The notes under the pieces were generated by a model. It saw only the letters and a list, made by a program, of their open reading frames with translations. It was not told the origin of the DNA and did not search any database. Both the position numbers and the translations under genes were made by a program. From Myxococcota bacterium (GTDB taxonomy: Bacteria > Myxococcota_A > UBA9160 > SZUA-336), in the NCBI GenBank assembly GCA_035498015.1, contig DATKAO010000109.1, positions 1 to 61,083 on the forward strand: 61,083 nucleotides of DNA. Reading direction: 5' to 3'. Below, piece after piece: positions 19,750-37,523 of this stretch; position 1 is the first letter of the stretch; each line of letters begins with the position of its first letter.

Positions 19750-22155
19750 TCACACGTTGTCGGACTCCGTCGAGCTCGCCCGCGTGCCGGCGGAGCCCGC
19801 GAGATCGCCCCAGCGCCAGCTCGCGATCGCGGGCAGGTCCTCGCCGTGCCTCTCGATGTACTCCTGGTGCTCGATCAGCCGGTCGCGGATCGCCTGCTTC
19901 GCGTAGGCGGCGCGCGCGCCGAGCTGCGGCACGCGGTCGATCACGTCGTTCACCAGGTGGAAGCGGTCGAGGTCGTTGCGCACGACCATGTCGAACGGCG
20001 TGGTCGTGGTGCCCTCCTCCTTGTAGCCGCGCACGTGCAGGTTCTCGTGATTCGTGCGCCGGTAGGTGAGTCGGTGGATCAGCCACGGGTAGCCGTGGAA
20101 GGCGAAGATGATCGGCTTGTCGCGGGTGAACAGCACGTCGAACTCGCGGTCGCTGAGCCCGTGTGGATGCTCCTCCGCCGGCTGCAAGCGCATCAGGTCC
20201 ACGACGTTGACCACGCGCACCTTCAGCTCGGGCAGGTGGCGGCGGACCAAGTCCACCGCCGCGAGTGTCTCGAGCGTCGGAACGTCGCCGCAGCAGGCCA
20301 TCACCACGTCGGGCTCGCCGCCCCGGTCGTTGCTCGCCCAGTCCCAGATCCCGATCCCGGCGCTGCAGTGCTTCACGGCCTGATCCATGTCGAGCCACTG
20401 CGGCGCGGGCTGCTTGCCGGCCACGATCACGTTCACGTAGTTGCGGCTGCGCAGGCAGTGATCGGTGACCGAGAGCAGCGTGTTCGCGTCGGGCGGAAGG
20501 TAGACGCGGATCACTTCGGCCTTCTTGTTCACCACGTGGTCGATGAAGCCCGGGTCCTGGTGACTGAAGCCGTTGTGGTCCTGGCGCCAGACGTGGGAGC
20601 TCAGCAGGTAGTTCAGCGAGGCGATCGGCCGCCGCCACGCGATCTGCCGTGACACCTTCAGCCACTTGGCGTGCTGGTTGAACATCGAGTCGACGATGTG
20701 GATGAAGGCCTCGTAGCAGCTGAAGAAGCCGTGGCGGCCGGTCAGCAGGTAGCCTTCGAGCCAGCCCTGACACTGGTGCTCGGACAAGACCTCCATCACG
20801 CGCCCGTCGGGGGAGAGGTGGTCGTCCTCGGGCCGGATCTCCGCGACGAAGCAGCGGTCGGTGGCTTCGAGCACGTCCTGCCAGCGGTTCGAGTTGTTCT
20901 CGTCGGGGCTGAATACGCGGAAGTTCCGGCTCTCGAGGTTGCGCTCCATCACGTCGCGCAGGAATTCGCCCTGCACGCGCGTGGCTTCGGCGCTCGATGC
21001 GCCGGGCTTCGGCACGGGGACGGCATAGTCGCGGAAGTCGGGCAGCCGCAGGTCGCGCAGCAGGAGCCCGCCGTTGGTGTGCGGATTCGCGCTCATGCGG
21101 CGCTCGCCCTTGGGCGCGAGCGCGGCGAGCTCGGGCACGAGCCGGCCCGCCGCGTCGAACAGCTCGTCGGGGCGGTAGCTGCGCATCCAGCCTTCGAGCA
21201 CGGCCACGTGCTCGGGCCGGTCCATGTCACTCATCGGGACCTGGTGACTGCGCCAGTAGCCCTCGCACAGCTTGCCATCGATCTCGCGCGGACAGGTCCA
21301 GCCCTTCGGCGTGCGCAGCACGATCATCGGCCAGATCGGCCGCGCCCCCTGGCCGCGCTCGCGCGCGTCGGCCTGGATGCGCCGGATCTCGGCCAGCACG
21401 CGCTCGAGTGTCTCGGCCATCTGCCGGTGCACGAGCTCCGGCTCGTGACCCTCGACGAAGAACGGCGCGTAGCCGTAGCCCTCGAGCAGCTTGCTGAGCT
21501 CGGCCTTCGGGATGCGCGCCAGAAAGGCGGGGTTGGCGATCTTGTAGCCGTTCAGGTGCAGGATCGGCAGAACGCAGCCGTCGCGCGCCGGGTTCAGGAA
21601 CTTGTTCCCGTGCCAGCCGGTCGCGAGCGGCCCGGTCTCGGCCTCGCCGTCGCCGACCACGCATGCCGCGATCAGGTCGGGGTTGTCGAACGCCGCGCCG
21701 AACGCGTGGGCCAGCGAGTAACCGAGCTCACCGCCCTCGTGGATCGAGCCGGGTGTCTCGGGCGCCACGTGACTCGGAATGCCGCCCGGGAAGCTGAACT
21801 GCTTGAACAGACGGCGCATGCCCTCCTCGTCGGGACTGACGTCCGGGTAGACCTCGCTGTAGGTGCCCTCGAGATACGCCTGGGCGATCAGCGCCGGGCC
21901 GCCGTGACCGGGACCGGTCACGAACAGCATGTCGAGGTCGTGCTCGGTGATCAGCCGGTTCAGGTGCAGGTACGCGAAGTTCAGCCCGGGCGTGGTGCCC
22001 CAGTGGCCGAGCAGCCGCGGCTTGATGTGCTCGCGCGCGAGCGGCTTGCGCAACAGCGGGTTGTCGAGCAGGTAGATCTGTCCGACGGAGAGGTAGTTCG
22101 CGGCGCGCCAGAGCGCGTCCAGCCGGTGCAGCGACTCGTCCGAGAGCGGGCCCAT
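19750..22155 (-). CDS. xfp: Phosphoketolase (xylulose-5-phosphate / fructose-6-phosphate)
   Basis: An 801-residue thiamine-diphosphate enzyme that splits xylulose-5-P or fructose-6-P with phosphate to acetyl-phosphate. Family signatures are the N-terminal [20 protein letters not shown], the [18 protein letters not shown] loop, the cofactor motif GDGEAETGP near residue 170, the [17 protein letters not shown] segment and the C-terminal [19 protein letters not shown]. The full length matches the family (about 790-825). It yields acetyl-phosphate and ATP without oxygen-dependent steps, useful under energy or oxygen limitation. A GAGAAGGAG ribosome-binding site precedes the ATG, and a very good sigma-54 promoter match lies 27 bases before it, linking the gene to the regulator at 41449. 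Confidence 0.96.
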
Positions 22156-22207: not shown

Positions 22208-25200
22208 TCAGGCGCGGAGCTCGGCCAGGCGCGCGACGGCGTGCTCGGCGTCGTCGGGCTCGAAGAACTCGATGCGCGTGATCCGGCCCGCCGCGACGGT
22301 CATGAGCGCCAGGTGATTCCCCTCGAACTCTCCGCCTTGCACGAGCGTCCCCGAGACCTGGACCACGCTCACCACCCCGTGCGGCTCGAGCGCCAGCCGG
22401 AAGGGCGTGACCACGCGCACGCGCGAGGCGAGCTCGGCCATCACCGCGACGCTCTCCGCGTAGGCGGCGGGCCCTTCCAAGAGCCCGAGCCGCATGCGCC
22501 GGTGATCCAGGAGCACGAAGTCGTCCGACAGGACCGCGCGCACCCGCACGGAGTCGCGCGCGTCCAGCGCGTCGGCGAGCTCGATCCCGGGCGCGAGCAC
22601 CGCCGCGGCGACCGGGTCGCGCGCGCACAGGCGGTCGCGCAGCTCGCGCAGCGCGCGGGGGCGTTCGTCCGGGGCGAACTCGCGCAGCAGCGCGATGCGA
22701 CCCTCCGCGTCGAGCTCGAGCATCCACAGTGACTCTGCGCTGTCCCCGCGGAGCAGCTCGACCGCGGAACGCGGGTCGGCGGCGCCGACCAAGGTGCGCG
22801 CGCGGACCGCGCCCGACTCGACGCGCTTGCAGAGCTCGGCCAGGCCCCGCTCGAGCTCCGCGCCGCCTGCGCACAGCCGGCGAGCGCCGCGCCAGTCACT
22901 CGCCGCGAGCGCGGCGAGCAAGCGGTCCAGAGCCACCGTCGCCTGGTTGGTGCTGGCGAAGCGCTCGATCGCACGCTGCGGGGGCTCGGCGCGAGCCCGG
23001 AGCTCCGCCTGCGCGGCGGCCCGGTCCTCCGGGTCGAAGTGCACGAAGCCACGCAGCCGACCGCCCGCGTCGAGCTCGACCAGGCGCAGGAACTCGCCTT
23101 CGAACGCGCCTTCGCCGGCCCCGCCGCTGTAGCGGAGGCGCTCGAGCGCGAGACGCTGGCCGCTGGTGGCGAGCAGCTCGCGCTGCAGCGCGATCTCGCC
23201 CCACGAGCGCACCACCGACAGGTTGCGCACGTAGGTCTCGACGTCCCCGCGCACCAGCGCCTGTCTGCGCCGGTCGTCGAATACGAAATCGGGAGTCACG
23301 AGCGCGCGCAGCGCGTCCCAGTCACCGGCGGGAACGATCCGCGCCAGCCGCTGTCCGGTGAAGTGCCAGGCGGCGTTCGGCGCCACCTGCCCCGGGACCG
23401 CTCGCCGCTCCGCGAAGTGCGCGCGGGCCAGCTCGAGCTGCTCGAGCGCGTACGCGTCCCAGCGCCAGATCCGGCCCGCGCCGTCCAGCTCGAGCAGGTT
23501 GGCCCCCGCGATCTCGAACGGACCGCCGTCGCGCGTGCCCTGCCAGTGACCGACGTTCAGCACCCCCCTCTCGTCCAGCTCGAGCACGTGCTCCGCGCGC
23601 GAGCGCACGTCGGGCGCCAGCTCGAACAGCTCGCGCAGGTGTGCGAGATACTCGTCGCGCGAGCGCAGCGTGCCGAAGCCCATGGGCCGGTGGTCGTGGA
23701 ACACCAGGTCGGGCGCGAACACGGAAGCCAGCGCGCTCCAATCGCGCGCCGCCGTCGCGCTCTCGAGCCGCCGGAGCGTGTCGCGGGTGGTGGGGAACGG
23801 CGCGGCCTCGCCCGACGCGTAGCGGCGCTCGAGCTCGTCGTACGCCTCTTCGAGCTCTTCGGAATCGAAGCGCACCATCGCGGTCCGCTGGCCGTGCTCG
23901 TCGACCTCCACCACCGCGAGATTCTCCGACTCGCTGGCGCCCACGGTGTCTCCGGAGCCCGAGTAGCGCAGCCTGGCGAGCGCCAGCCGCTGGCCTCGGG
24001 TGGCGAGAATCACGTTGGGAAGCTGACTCTCGATCGTGTCGTACAGCTCGCGCATGAACGCCAGGAACTGGGCCCGATCGAGCTCGAGCTGCATCAGGCC
24101 GCGGCGGTCCTCGCAGCGGAAGTCGGGCGCGATGAGCGCGACGCAGGCCGTCCAGTCGCGCGCTTCCCACGCGCGACCGAAGCTCTCGAGCGAGCGGCTC
24201 GCGGCGTTCTCGATGCGCAGGACCGGAGCCCCTCCGCCAAGTGACTCACCGAGCGCGTGTCGCCGCCCGAGCTCCGCAAGCGCCTCGTCCAGGGCATCGG
24301 AGTCGAACACGACCAGCGCGCGGCGCCGCCCCAGGGCGTCCACCTCGATCACGTCGAGCGCCTCGACCGCGCTCGGGCCGCCGCCGCTCCCGGCGCGCGC
24401 GCCGAAACGCACGCGGAAGAGACCCAGCCGCTCGCCCCGCGTCGCCACCCGCTCGCTCTGCCAGCGGCTGCCTTCGAGCTCGAACAGGTGCCGCTCGTTC
24501 GCGACGAAGTCCGCGCTCTCCACCTGCATGCGGAACAGCCGCCGGCGGTCGTCCATGGCGTGGCCCGGCGCGTAGCTCGCCGCCACTCCCGGCCAGTCGC
24601 GCGCGTTCCAGGCGCGCTCGAAGCGCTCGAGCGCGCGCGTGGCCGCGTTGGCTGGGGGAACGGAGCTCGAGTCACTCGCGCCTCCGAGCGCCAGAAACCG
24701 CTCGCGCGCTTCCGCCTCGCGGCTCAGGTCGAACTGCTCGAACCGGGTCAGTCGCCCGTCGGCTCCGAACTGCCAGAGCATGACGGCCGAGCGCTCGAAC
24801 TCGCCCCCGCTCACGAGATCGCGGCCGAACGTCACGTGCAGCGCCAGCAGCGCATCGGGCCGTACTCCGATCACGCGCGGGACCTGCGCGCTGAGCTCGG
24901 CCGAGAGCTCGAGCAGCGTTCGAATCGCGCGAGTCACCGCCTCGGCACCGGTCACGACGCCCGCGCCCACCGTCCGGTGGTCGAGCAGCCGGACCTCCGG
25001 TGAGAAGCTCGACGCGTAGCGCTCCAGGTCGAGACGGCCACGCCACGGCAGCGCAGAGACCGAGCGCGCGGTGGCCGCCGCCCGGGCTCGCTCCGGTCCA
25101 TCGGGCGCCAGCTCCGCGTAGCGCTCGTAGAGGCGCGCGATCGCGTCGCCGAGGTTCTGGGGCATGAACACCTCGGAGCGCACGGCTCGCCCCCGCTCGT

Positions 25201-28200
25201 CGACCTCGACCAACACCAGGCTCTCGTGTGTCGTGGGACCGAACTCGAGGTCGCGAGTCGAGGAGCCGTCGAACGCGTATGCCTGCCGGCCCAGCGTCAG
25301 CGAGTCACCGAGGCTGGCGAGAGAGTCATAGCTCACCTCGCTCGCGCCTTCTTCGAACATCGCCCGCCAGCCCTGGAGCAGCCGCTCTCTGTCGTAGGTC
25401 GTCGCGACCCCGACGTGATCGACGTTGGTGATGTCGTCGGCCAGGAGACTCGATAGCGCGTCCAGATCGCGCGCGCGGATCGCGGCGACGACCCGCTCCT
25501 GATACGCCGTCGCGGCGTTGGCTCGGACGATCGGCGCGTCGACCCGCAGCTCGGGAAGCGCGGCGAAGCGCGCGAGCGCCTCGGACTGACTCCCGGCGTC
25601 GAACTGCTCCCAGCGCTCCAAGCGGCCGTCGGGTCCGAACGCGAAGAGCTGACACAGATCGCGCTCGAAGCCGCCGCCACCGTCGCGCCGTTCACCGGAG
25701 TTGGCCCAGCCGACCACGAGCGCGTCGGCGCGCAGCGCCCAGAGGTCGACGACCTGCACGCTGAAGCTCGCCGACAGCTCGAACAGCGCGCGGATGCTCT
25801 GCAGCACCGCCTCGAGCCCGCGCACCCGGCCCGGGCCGACGGTGCGCGTGTCGATGAACTCGATCCCGGGAGCGAAGGCCGGCGCCCAGAGGTCTGGATC
25901 CGCCGGCCCGAACAGCGCAGCGACCGCGCGCGCCGTGGCTGCGGCCCTCGACCGGGCAGGCCCGGCGGGCAGCCGTTCGGCGTAGCGCTCGTAGAGTCGG
26001 GCGATCGCCTCGCCGAGCTTCTCGGACGCGATGACCTCGTCGCGCGCCCGCCCGTTCGCGTCGACCTCGGACAACACGAGCTCGTGCGGCTCGAGACCCC
26101 GGGCGAGCTCGAGCGAGTCACCCAGCACGGCGAGCGTGCGTGGGCCGAGCCGGGTCCGCTGCGCGGCCGCGGCGTGGTCACTCACTCGTCGGGGCTGCGC
26201 GAGCGGATCGACGCGCGCCAGGCGCCCGGCACGCTCGGCGAGCAGCGTCGCGCCCTTGGCCTCCCAGAGCTCGACCGCGCGCGCGTCCTCGGCGTCGGCC
26301 TCCGCGCCGCGGCCAGCCGCGCGCAGCGCGGTCGCGAGCGCGCGGCGCGCGTTGGCGTGATGCAGCAGCGCGTCGGTGGCCGAGGCGATCTCGACGGCCG
26401 CGCGCGCGAGCTCCACGGCGGCGGCGTGCTCTCCGCGCCGGGCGAGCGCCTCCGCACGCACGCCGCGCCAGGCGATCGCGGCCTGCAGGTCGTCGCCGGC
26501 GAGCCGCTCACTCTCCTGACTCAACACCTCGGCGCCGATCGCATCGCCTTGCGCGAGACGCGCGCGCGCGAGCAGCGCCGCCGCCCGTGCGGCGTCGATC
26601 GCGAGCCCGTGCTCGCGCAGCCCCTCGTAGGCCACCGACAGGCAGCGCGCCGCGGCCTCGGGCTCCCCTTCGAGCAGCTCGATGTAGCCCGCAAAGAACT
26701 CGACCTCGAGCAGCTGCGGCGCGAGCCCGAGCTCCTCGACCGTGCGGCGCGCCGCGCCGATCATGCGCCGAGCGGCGTCGGCGCGGCCGCGCAGCGCCTC
26801 GAGCACGGCCTGACAGCGCAGCGCGACGGCCTCGACCACCGGCGCCCCCTGAGTGATTCGCAGCACGCGCACCACGTCGAGACAGCGACCGCTGGCGCGC
26901 GCGACGGGGCTCGGGCCGTACAGGGCGGCGACCGGCGCGCCGGCCAGCACGCTGTTCGCGCGCCGCCGGTCCTGTGCGCGGCGCGCCGCCGCGAGCGCGT
27001 GGTCGAGCGCCGCCTCAGAGGCGCCGATCCGACCCAGCCGCGCGAGGGCCGTGGCGTGCACCGAGTGCGCTTTGGCTTCGCCCGCGACGTCGCCCGCCGC
27101 AGCCAGCGCGGCCGCCGCCGCCTCGGCCGACTCCGCGGCGGCGCGCAGCGCCTCGGGGTCGGTGAGCACCGCGAGCTCGGCGGCAAAGCAGGCGTGCCAG
27201 GCGCGCAGGCGCTCGGAGCTCGGGGCGAAGCGCGCGAGCTCGGCGACCGCGCGGCTGGCCGAAGCGACCTCGCCCGCCGCCAGCAGTGACTCGCACCAGT
27301 CGAGCGCGAGCTCGGCGCGCGCCGGGTCGTCGGCATCGAGACAGCCGAGCGCGCGGCCGAGCAGGTCGGCCGCGAGCGTCAGCTCGTCGCGCGCGAGCGC
27401 CGCCCGCCCGGCGCCCCCCAGGTGCCGCGCCGCGCGCGCGCCGACCGCCCCGCCGTGCGAGTCGAGCGGGCCCAGCTCGCGCAGGTGCGCGTGCGCCTGC
27501 TCGAGGTGGAAGCCGATCCGCTCGGCGTGCTCGCGCGCCTCGCCCGCCTGCGCGGCGATCCACTCCGCCAGGCGCTCGTGCAGCTCGGCGCGCGTGCGGC
27601 GCAGCACGCGCCGGTAGGCGGCGTCGCGGATCAGCGCGTGGTGGAAGCGCAGCCCGGGCTCCCCGAGGAACCAGCCGTTGTCGGGCTCGATCAGCTCGCT
27701 GCGCCGGAGCGACTCGAGCCGCGCGTCGAGCTCCGCGGGGTCGCGCTGCAGGAGATGCGCGACGGCGGCGCGCGAGAAGTGGCGCCCGACCACCGCGGCG
27801 CGCTCGAGGATCGCGCGCTCGTCCGCGGCCAGCCGCTCGATGCGCGCGGCCAGCAGCGCATGGATGGTCGGCGGCATCTCGAGCCGGGCGAGCTCGATCC
27901 CGACGATCCAGCGCTCGCCGTCGCGCCGCAGCGCGCCGTCCTGCACCAGCATGCGCACGAGCTCGCCCACGAACAAAGGGTTCCCCTCGCTCGCGGCGAG
28001 CACGCGCCCGACCACCGCCGCGGGCAGCTCGTCCGCGCCGATCGCGTTGGCCGCGAGCCGTGCTGCTGCGGAGGCGTCGAGGCCCGAGAGAGTCACCACC
28101 TCGGCCACGACACCGCCTGGTGTCGCGAGCGACGAGCGCAGCTCGCGCAGCTCGGGGCGCGAGCCGAGCAGCACCAGGAGCGGCACGCCGCTCGACCACT

Positions 28201-29440
28201 CGACCAGGTGCTCGGCCAGGTCGAGCAAGAGCGGCTCCGCCCACTGCACGTCGTCGATCGCGAGCACCACGGGACGCGACACGGCCAGCCCCGCGAGCAG
28301 CCGGCGCACGACGAAGAAGGTCTCCTCGGGCGAGGCGGGGGCGCCGGCGAAGAGCGCCTCGAGGCCGCTCGCGAGCCGCGCGCGCTCGGCGTCCGCGCCG
28401 GGCACGGCGCGCTCGAGCGCGGCGCGAAGGTCGTCGGGCCCAAGCGCGTCACCGAGCCCGAGCTGGGCGCGCAGCGCCGCGGCCACGGGCGCAAAGCTGC
28501 GGCCTCGCGCCGGGTCGCAGCGCGCGGACAGCACGGTCGCCCGCTCGCTCACGCGGCGGGCGAACTCGGCGAGCAAGCGCGACTTGCCCAGGCCCGGTGA
28601 GCCGAGCAGCACGGCCATGCGCGCGCCGGGCGCGGCGACCGCGGTGTCGAACACGGCGCGCAAGCGGCGCAGCTCGTCCTCGCGTCCCACGAAGCTGGTC
28701 CCCGGCCGGGCTCCCCCGGGTGACTCGAGCGACACGACCCGGTAGGCCGACACGGGCTCCACGCGGCCGCGCAGCGCGAAGCTGCCCAGTGACTCGAGCG
28801 TGACCTCGCCCGCGACCAGGCGCCGGGTCGCCTCGCCGAGCAGAACGTCGCCATCGCGCGCCTCCTGCTGCAGGCGCGCCGCGACGTTGGTCGGATCGCC
28901 CGTCACGCTGGTCTGGTCATCGGAGACGATCACCTCGCCCGTGTTGACCGCGATGCGCAGGCCCGCGGCGCCCACGGCCTCGGCCTGCTCGCGCAAGAGC
29001 TCGCGAAAAGCCACCTGCATGGCGACCGCCGCGCGCACGCCGCGGATGGCATCGTCCTCGCCCACCCGCGGCACGCCGAACGCGCACAGCACCCCGTCGC
29101 CCAGGAGCTGGACCACGGTCCCGCCGTGGGCCCGGACCACGGCCGTCATTCCCTCGTGGTAGCGAGCCATGAAGCGGCGGGCGCGCTCCGCGTCGAGCCG
29201 CTCGTGGAGCCCCACCGAGCCGACCAGATCGGCGAAGACGATCGTGACCACCTTGCGCGCCGTGGTCTCGAGCGGCGGCGGCGCGGGACTTCCGAGCGCC
29301 GCGCCGCAGGCGTCGCAGAACTGCGCATCGGCCGGGCACTCGGCCCCGCAGCGCGGGCAGCGGGGCGCGAGCGCCTGCCCGCAGCCACTGCAGAATCGGG
29401 CGCCGGAGCGATTCGCTCGGCCGCAGCTCGCGCAGTTCAC
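22208..29440 (-). CDS. Giant zinc-ribbon / class III cyclase / AAA ATPase / TPR / NTF2-repeat protein
   Basis: A 2410-residue single reading frame. Residues 1-50 hold two zinc ribbons ([19 protein letters not shown] and [19 protein letters not shown]). Residues of about 62-240 are a class III nucleotide cyclase with metal aspartates in FADLVGS and LLGDGV and transition-state residues in TNVAARL; the usual purine-binding lysine is Gln (VVQLLGDG). From about residue 255 an AAA/STAND ATPase follows with Walker A GSPGLGKS (near 280) and Walker [14 protein letters not shown]-like helices fill about 640-1090. From about 1090 to the end there are about nine SnoaL/NTF2-like modules of roughly 140 residues (recurring DDRR/DHRR, ERFERAWxARDW and FD or FE endings), plus a leading half-module. 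The GTG start has only a weak ribosome-binding site. Cyclase-ATPase-TPR proteins are known; this length of NTF2 tail is unusual. Ligand and product are unknown. Confidence 0.88.
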
Positions 29441-35638: not shown

Positions 35639-36067
35639 TCAGTCTGCCTCGGGCGGGCTCTCCTTGCGCACGAGCTCGGCGATCGTGCCGAGCTCTTCCG
35701 CGAGCGCGACCAGGATGTCGTCGAGTGACACGACGCCCACGAGCTCGCGGCGGCCGTTCACGACCGGCACGCGGCGCAGCGCGAGATCGCGCATGACGCA
35801 GAGCACGCTGGCGGTGTCCTGGGTGTCGGTGACGAAGATCGGGCGCTCCGACATCACCTCGCCCACCAGGGCCTTCTCGGCGTCGAGGCCTTCCGCGAGC
35901 ACGCGCACGACCAGGTCGCGGTCGGTCAGCATGCCGATCGGCTCTCCGTCCTCGACCACCACCAGCGACCCCATCCGCTCGTCGCGCATGCACTGCGCCG
36001 CCACGGAGCACGGCGTGGCGGGCGAGACGGTTGCGGGCTCACGGCGCAAGAGCGTTCCGACGTTCAT
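35639..36067 (-). CDS. CBS-domain pair protein
   Basis: A 142-residue protein composed of two CBS domains: MNVGTLLRREPATVSPATPC with MGSLVVVEDGEPIGMLTDRDL, and VMSERPIFVTDTQD with LRRVPVVNGRRELVGVVSLDD. Such stand-alone Bateman modules bind adenine nucleotides and sense energy charge. It lies ten bases downstream of the cytochrome c gene on the same strand, so it should share that gene's sigma-54-like promoter. Two other CBS proteins (38 kb and 41 kb region) are in the same stress cluster. Confidence 0.92.
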   Translation of the reverse strand: MNVGTLLRREPATVSPATPCSVAAQCMRDERMGSLVVVEDGEPIGMLTDRDLVVRVLAEGLDAEKALVGEVMSERPIFVTDTQDTASVLCVMRDLALRRVPVVNGRRELVGVVSLDDILVALAEELGTIAELVRKESPPEAD

Positions 36068-36077
36068 GACCTTCCTC

Positions 36078-36521
36078 TCAGTGCTGGGGCGGCGGCGCGA
36101 CGGGCGCGGCCACTTGGATCGACTTCAGATACTCGACGAGCGATGCGATGCGGTCGCGAACCTCGACCTCGTTCGTCGCGTCCGCGGCGTCATAGGCGAA
36201 GACCTTGCCCCAGAGCGGCATCTTCGCGGGTCCGTGGCCGCGCACGCGCCTGCGGCCGTCGATGATCTCGCGCACCTCCGGCTCGGGAAACACACCGCCG
36301 CGGCGCTTCGCGATGGTCGTGAGATCGGCGGGCGCCACCTTCAGCTCGTCTGCCAGCGGGCCATCGCCGTGGGCGCGCAAGCCGTGACACACCATGCAGT
36401 GCTGCTCGTACAGGTTGTGCCCCGCCTGCGCCGGCACCGACTCCTCGCCGCGCGCGGAGCCGCCGATGACCAGCAAGAACCCCATTGCCGCGGTCGACCG
36501 CCAGAGCCCGTGCGATTTCAT
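36078..36521 (-). CDS. Class I cytochrome c (exported), paralogue of 19246-19680
   Basis: A 147-residue protein with a signal peptide (TAAMGFLLVIGGSARG) and one heme motif CMVCH near residue 45. GDGPLADELKVAPADLTTI, RRGGVFPEPEVREIIDGRR and a methionine in GPAKMPLWGKVF match the other cytochrome in this window. It is probably periplasmic, donating or accepting electrons near a terminal oxidase or reductase. ATG 36521 is only 14 bases after the GC of a strong sigma-54-like promoter, so its message would be nearly leaderless; a TTG six codons upstream is less likely. Confidence 0.88.
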   Translation of the reverse strand: MKSHGLWRSTAAMGFLLVIGGSARGEESVPAQAGHNLYEQHCMVCHGLRAHGDGPLADELKVAPADLTTIAKRRGGVFPEPEVREIIDGRRRVRGHGPAKMPLWGKVFAYDAADATNEVEVRDRIASLVEYLKSIQVAAPVAPPPQH

Positions 36522-36534
36522 GGCCCGGCGCTGG

Positions 36535-36550
36535 TGCAACGCACATGCCG
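36535..36550 (-). promoter_or_regulatory. Putative sigma-54 promoter of cytochrome c-CBS operon
   Basis: On the minus strand CGGCATGTGCGTTGCA fits TGGCACG-N4-TTGCA at GGCA, G and TTGCA, with GG-N10-GC spacing. The GC is 14 bases before the ATG, so transcription would start within a few bases of the start codon. Confidence 0.55.
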
Positions 36551-36643
36551 CCGCGGCCGCGCACGAGAGGTCACTCGACCGTGGCGGAATGACTCAGCGT
36601 GGCATCGAGTCACGAGCCCGAGCCACGAGCGCGCACCCGGCGC

Positions 36644-36659
36644 GGGTATGCTCGTTGCA
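36644..36659 (+). promoter_or_regulatory. Possible sigma-54 promoter of universal stress operon
   Basis: GGGTATGCTCGTTGCA has a perfect TTGCA -12 element and the GG-N10-GC spacing, but the -24 element (GGTAT) is weak. The GC is 13 bases before ATG 36672, and the bases between resemble those of the divergent cytochrome promoter. Confidence 0.35.
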
Positions 36660-36671
36660 CCGCCGGCCCGC

Positions 36672-37523
36672 ATGAGCTGGCCACCGCGCCGAATCCTCGT
36701 CGGAGTCGACTTTTCCGAGAGCTCCCGGGCGGCGCTGTCGGCGGCCAGCGGCCTGGCGCGACGGGTCGGCGCGACGCTCTCGCTGCTCCATGTCGTGCCC
36801 GATGCGCTGCTCTTCTCGCCCTCGCCGGAGGCCCGGGCCGCGGCGTCGAGGCGCTTGTCGCTGCTGGCCGAGCGCGAGGCGCCGCCGGGCACGGATTTCC
36901 ACGTCCGAAAGGGCGACCCGACGCTCGAGCTGGTCGCGCTGCGCGACCTGGGCGACTTCGACCTCGTCGTGACTGGCGCGGGTCACATGCGCAGCATGGG
37001 GCGCTTCGTGCTGGGCAGCGTCGCGGGCAAGCTGCTCGGATACCCCGGAGCACCGCTCCTGATCGTCGCCTCGACGCCCTCGGGGGGCGAGTTCAAGCGC
37101 ATCCTGATCGCGCAGGAGAACCCGCGAGTCACTTCGCCCTGGCAGAAGATCGGCCTCGCGCTGGCGCATGCCGAGCGCGGCGAGGTGGCGCTGCTGCACG
37201 TGCTGCCGCCGCGCGGCTATCTCTCCGATCGACACCACGTCGACCTCGAGCCGCAGCGCGCGCCATCGCGGCTTTGCGCACAGCTCGCCAAGCTCGATCC
37301 GACGGTGCCCGCCCAGGTGGTGATCCGGCAGGGCGAGGCCGGCAACGAGATCGCGGTCGCCGCGCGCGAGCTCGACGTTCATCTGGTCGTGCTCGGCGCC
37401 GAGCGCAACCGCCCCGACCACGGGCCCGGCCCGGTCGTGAACCGCATCGCGCGCTCCGGCGTCCCGGCGCTGCTCGTGATCTGGCCCGAGCGCGAGTCGG
37501 ACGAGGAGTTCGCCGAGCATTGA
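36672..37523 (+). CDS. Tandem universal stress protein
   Basis: A 283-residue protein with two UspA-like domains. The first starts RRILVGVDFSESSRAALSAA and includes VTGAGHMRSMGRFVLGSVAG, an intact nucleotide-binding glycine pattern. The second starts FKRILIAQENPRVTSPWQKI and is more divergent, with LGAERNRPDHGPGPVVNRI. ATG 36672 is used because the domain starts at once; ATG 36648 is also in frame. It is the first gene of a three-gene stress operon with a CBS-DksA fusion and a BCAM0308 protein. Confidence 0.87.
   Translation: MSWPPRRILVGVDFSESSRAALSAASGLARRVGATLSLLHVVPDALLFSPSPEARAAASRRLSLLAEREAPPGTDFHVRKGDPTLELVALRDLGDFDLVVTGAGHMRSMGRFVLGSVAGKLLGYPGAPLLIVASTPSGGEFKRILIAQENPRVTSPWQKIGLALAHAERGEVALLHVLPPRGYLSDRHHVDLEPQRAPSRLCAQLAKLDPTVPAQVVIRQGEAGNEIAVAARELDVHLVVLGAERNRPDHGPGPVVNRIARSGVPALLVIWPERESDEEFAEH

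Follow-up and report, generated by a model that had tools for sequence, protein, structure and literature searches.

A rare cyclase–STAND ATPase of a Myxococcota bacterium carries a variable array of NTF2-like modules

A single gene spanning 22208–29440

The window analysed here is a 61,083-nt stretch of DNA from a Myxococcota bacterium whose draft genome comprises 257 contigs. At 22208–29440 on the reverse strand lies a single open reading frame (ORF) of 2410 codons with a GTG start (MNCASC...), exactly where the sequence-only reading had placed a 2410-residue protein in one frame. The start is backed by a paralogue in the same genome, which begins MDCASC. Third-position GC content, calculated in 150-codon steps, was 0.87–0.97 from end to end, array and reduced modules included, supporting the ORF as one genuine coding frame. 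Neither a promoter nor a terminator signal was found for this gene. Pfam searches with the whole protein returned DZR, Guanylate_cyc, AAA_16 and SnoaL_2, the latter with E = 7e-50 across eight stretches. The resulting domain order was a double zinc ribbon, a class III cyclase, an AAA_16 ATPase, TPR-like helices and an array of NTF2-like modules.

A phosphoketolase gene (XFP_N/XFP/XFP_C; 19750–22155, reverse strand) starts 52 nt after the stop codon of the cyclase gene and, being on the same strand, might be co-transcribed with it. Upstream, a YkuD transpeptidase gene is divergently oriented. The phosphoketolase was not conserved beside the other copies described below, whose neighbours differ, and there is no conserved operon around the array cyclase genes; the genes around them provided no pathway hint. 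The window also contained a 619-aa frame (35664–37523, forward strand) in which two stretches matched universal stress protein (Usp).

The cyclase, ATPase and TPR core

All parts of the 2410-residue protein described from here on are encoded on the reverse strand. The double zinc ribbon (29294–29440, residues 1–49) matched DZR (E = 1.1e-9, residues 3–46) and Zn_Ribbon_1. The class III nucleotidyl cyclase domain (28724–29257, residues 62–239) was identified by Guanylate_cyc (E = 1.1e-13, residues 62–228) together with a check of its motifs, and its sequence matched 2w01 and 3r5g in the PDB (E about 1e-19/20). Both metal-binding Asp residues and the transition-state Asn/Arg pair (NxxxR) were kept (motifs FADLVGS, LLGDG and TNVAAR), and all catalytic residues were present except the two base-specifying ones. 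At these positions Lys was replaced by Gln (VVQLLGDG) and Asp by Ser, such that the canonical Lys/Asp purine pair was lacking. In adenylyl cyclases this pair is a specificity feature and is not needed for class III membership. The Gln had been read from the sequence as casting doubt on the nucleotide product. The substitution is real, but the ordinary cyclase-ATPases of this bacterial family whose motif could be read mostly have Gln there as well, and it is therefore no peculiarity of the 2410-residue protein. Rv0386 of Mycobacterium tuberculosis (cyclase-ATPase-LuxR), likewise a class III cyclase on a STAND ATPase with Gln for Lys, makes cAMP; it carries a LuxR DNA-binding end where the array protein has NTF2-like modules. 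Judged by sequence, cAMP is the most likely product of the cyclase here. A count over the whole genome gave 17 matches to the class III cyclase domain and 7 encoded cNMP-binding domains, the latter being possible receivers of the cyclic nucleotide. A Pycsar defence cyclase (PycC) was considered and rejected, as only partial cyclase-domain matches were found (E 8e-11 and weaker) and no effector adjoined the gene (phosphoketolase and YkuD).

The AAA_16 ATPase (28172–28693, residues 250–423; E = 4.5e-21) was STAND/MalT-LAL-like, with intact Walker A (GSPGLGKS) and Walker B motifs. For the TPR-like helical region (26216–27493, about residues 650–1075), TPR_12 scored below cut-off in the 2410-residue protein (E = 0.004) and above it in the paralogue (E = 2.7e-7), so that the TPRs named in the sequence-only reading are clear in the second copy and weak in this one. 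A search of the PDB by sequence with the ATPase–TPR part gave no match. MalT-type STAND ATPases share the succession of an AAA_16-type NOD and TPRs, and the protein of the class with the most closely related core (L066) matched TPR_MalT. What sets the array protein apart from MalT is a cyclase ahead of the NOD and an NTF2 array following the TPRs. In MalT-like TPR-sensor STANDs, sensor contacts keep the protein shut and the inducer opens it (PMC6468293).

Ordinary cyclase-AAA_16-TPR proteins, including the TIGR03903 TOMM kinase/cyclase fusion and soluble-adenylyl-cyclase-like proteins, have the same order from zinc ribbon to TPRs and mostly the same Gln, yet stop at the TPRs and lack an NTF2 array. 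The TIGR03903 score of the 2410-residue protein was 225, far below the cut-off of 706. Ordinary relatives were 30–39% identical to it and about 1000–1450 aa in length, those of the same family being 29–34% identical and about 980–1370 aa, and the ones whose C-termini were read ended in TPR-like sequence with no NTF2 modules. The array-bearing cyclase is a rare variant within this cyclase-STAND family. Another genome of the family (G006) had eleven cyclase-AAA-TPR matches (e.g. on C40, C33, C34 and C36), several of which share one contig, an expansion of the ordinary family.

Eight intact NTF2-like modules and two reduced ones form the C-terminal array

About nine NTF2-like modules, diverged from each other, had been proposed beforehand. 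Using a profile built from eight modules, this count was refined slightly to eight intact modules, each 133–139 aa, and two reduced ones, with a mean identity among modules within one protein of ~26%. The first module, M1 (25955–26173, about residues 1090–1162), is a reduced type A module that has lost its N-terminal half, as seen when it is aligned with its complete counterpart in the paralogue. It is followed by M2 (type I; 25544–25954, residues 1163–1299), M3 (type A; 25112–25522, residues 1307–1443), M4 (type I; 24674–25090, residues 1451–1589), M5 (type II; 24248–24652, residues 1597–1731), M6 (type II; 23810–24211, residues 1744–1877), M7 (type I; 23393–23794, residues 1883–2016) and M8 (type II; 22979–23377, residues 2022–2154). 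M9 (22622–22951, about residues 2164–2273) occupies a type II position and is eroded, giving partial matches to our own HMM. The C-terminal M10 (22211–22609, residues 2278–2410) is again type I.

Each of the intact modules, searched singly, matched SnoaL_2 (8/8, E 2e-4 to 7e-15), six of them above the gathering cut-off: M2 (E = 1e-8), M3 (E = 1.7e-6), M4 (E = 2.1e-6), M6 (E = 6e-6), M7 (E = 7.3e-15) and M10 (E = 6.9e-7). M5 (E = 6e-5) fell just under the cut-off and M8 (E = 2e-4) under it, and neither M1 nor M9 alone had a Pfam match. An AlphaFold2 model of residues 1590–2410, covering modules 5–10 and built from four alignment rows, had a pLDDT of 80.9 and a pTM of 0.43, indicating that the domain folds are reliable and the mutual arrangement of the modules is not. 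In this model, modules 5–10 have the cone-shaped alpha+beta fold of NTF2-like domains, and the order of helices and strands is kept in M9. Structural comparison of the model with the PDB using Foldseek placed the tandem NTF2-fold proteins MonBI-MonBII, Lsd19 and iota-carbonic anhydrase first, followed by ketosteroid isomerases (KSI) and SnoaL-like proteins (target TM up to 0.82). The corresponding model of M1–M4 (two rows) reached a pLDDT of only 44, and the NTF2-like assignment of these four modules consequently rests on sequence. The anticipated fold of the repeats was thus borne out for the C-terminal six modules.

The array recurs in a paralogue and in another bacterial family

The paralogue is encoded on two contigs of the same genome (G000:C23:2-1951 and G000:C194:1-6560; L026 and L005), its first 656 codons closing C23 and the remainder opening C194. 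The contig ends overlap by 141 identical nucleotides and the frame is open across them, from which we infer that the contigs join, and the paralogue's length (about 2790 aa) and module count (12, all intact) depend on this join. Identity between the two proteins was 69% for the core and 38% for the array. Arrays were also found in two genomes from another family of the class, G024 (9 modules; contig deposited as QEVM01000258.1, Proteobacteria bacterium isolate PRO3) and G066 (at least 7 modules), both cut by contig ends. This comparison among relatives revealed that the number of modules ranges between 8 and 12 across array proteins on a conserved core. Array proteins occurred in 3/91 genomes of the class and in the same three of 379 genomes sampled from the phylum.

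A scan of genome contigs with the whole protein found nothing and one with the module alignment found a single locus, on a contig of G024, both using narrow patterns that do not prove absence elsewhere. A tblastn search of the array against plasmids gave no match, and no description of tandem SnoaL/NTF2 arrays on cyclases was retrieved from the collection of papers searched. A cluster of small NTF2-like genes was seen in the genome of the window protein (G000:C69:7757-8840, reverse strand), where three nearby SnoaL_2 matches fall in short frames.

These relatives also bear on whether a cyclase gene and other genes were artificially fused during assembly, an explanation that a draft of so many contigs invites. 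The paralogue has the same layout, and in G024 the TPR-to-array junction recurs in frame with a TPR end 79% identical to that of the window protein. We therefore regard the ORF as a single gene, as first read, and an assembly fusion as scarcely credible.

The array evolves faster than the core

A maximum-likelihood tree of 36 modules divided them, with good support, into type I (16 modules; 100/98) and all the others (20 modules; 100/98). The type A modules (100/98) and the N-terminal type I modules (100/99) each formed a supported subclade. Corresponding positions from different proteins tended to cluster in supported clades, suggesting that the layout (A-I)n-II-II-I-II-(II)-I is probably older than the copies. 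Three A-I units were counted in the paralogue, compared with one and a half to two in the window protein, and adjacent units were up to 59% identical; on this sequence evidence, duplication of an A-I unit is the apparent route by which module copy number changes.

Between the window protein and the paralogue, dN was 0.18–0.22 in the core and 0.36–0.80 in the modules at similar dS (0.6–1.1), equating to ~3x faster evolution of the array protein sequence; these are simple Nei-Gojobori values from a GC-rich genome with modules paired by best match, and the contrast alone is usable. The core is under constraint. Such a contrast might be expected if the array were decaying, or expanding neutrally, under relaxed selection while the cyclase, ATPase and TPRs formed the working protein. 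The half-lost M1, the eroded M9 and the ordinary relatives that manage without an array point the same way. However, the four long arrays in the two bacterial families had no stops (945 and 1375 open codons in the contig-cut relatives, more in the complete ones), corresponding positions fell in supported cross-protein clades, and pN/pS outside the ligand pocket was 0.75. We consider decay or neutral expansion improbable.

The predicted ligand pocket is hydrophobic, hypervariable and lacks a complete catalytic triad

Pocket columns were set by sequence alignment to the Pseudomonas putida KSI and its active-site positions. Among the 36 modules, the general base Asp40 was retained in 30, Asp103 in two and the oxyanion-hole Tyr16 in none, and no module had the complete triad. 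The 19 pocket-equivalent positions were more often hydrophobic (62% vs 44% elsewhere) and less often charged (14% vs 30%). In corresponding modules, hydrophobic pocket columns were 23.5% identical compared with 47.5% for other hydrophobic columns, and none of 1000 random column sets was as variable as the pocket. The pN/pS ratio was 1.28 in the pocket. A hypervariable hydrophobic pocket is predicted by diversification of ligands and also by relaxed constraint in an unused cavity.

The modules could instead be enzymes (an isomerase, epoxide hydrolase or aldol cyclase) fused to a regulator, given that the nearest structures (MonB, Lsd19, KSI, SnoaL-like) are enzymes and that most modules retain the central Asp. 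The absence of the Tyr from every module and of the third-position Asp from all but two argues against this, as does the finding that active-site positions were the most variable. KSI-type catalysis was rejected, and a catalytic role of any of these kinds is very unlikely. Lsd19, the MonBI-MonBII fusion and iota-carbonic anhydrase resemble the array in having NTF2-like domains head to tail in one chain, but their domains are few and catalytic, whereas the array has 8–12 on a signalling core.

A candidate sensor controlling cyclic nucleotide output

NTF2-like domains often dimerise and class III cyclases require two catalytic domains, so the array might serve as an oligomerisation or protein-docking scaffold that unites cyclase domains and binds no small ligands. 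The best PDB matches were tandem or multi-subunit NTF2 assemblies, and the association domain of CaMKII is an oligomerising NTF2-like example. Non-enzymatic, multimerising NTF2-like members exist (PMC3924330). Conservation of an interface, however, does not predict a low-charge, hydrophobic and hypervariable pocket, and the varying number of modules against a conserved core likewise speaks against a scaffold, which we judge a rather unlikely explanation.

We favour, at about even chances, a MalT-like cyclase of the STAND type in which a non-catalytic, diversifying array would bind ligands and serve as the sensor. The class III domain would make cyclic nucleotide upon opening of the ATPase/TPR switch, whose state would be set by the eight intact and two reduced modules acting as non-catalytic sensory domains that bind ligands. 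Modules have been gained and lost and have diversified in their pockets, so that any one copy would probably respond to more than one small hydrophobic ligand. The multi-ligand sensor put forward in the sequence-only reading is compatible with the absence of a complete triad, the hydrophobic hypervariable pocket and the faster-evolving array; the binding of ligands, its coupling to the ATPase and cyclase, and the product we infer.

A more specific proposal, which we hold only tentatively and think unlikely to the same degree as the scaffold, is a combinatorial chemosensor, in which 8–12 cavities, each for a different hydrophobic ligand and under positive selection, feed through a single STAND switch that integrates them into a single cyclic-nucleotide output. 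STAND proteins typically sense with surface repeats (TPR, WD40, LRR). If true, the combinatorial chemosensor would be a receptor built from an array of repeats that are ligand pockets instead of such surfaces, and a cyclase bearing some ten domains with enclosed pockets would represent a different route to a many-input sensor. The many-input sensor idea lends itself to a direct test, since the cores of the two paralogues are conserved and their pockets divergent.
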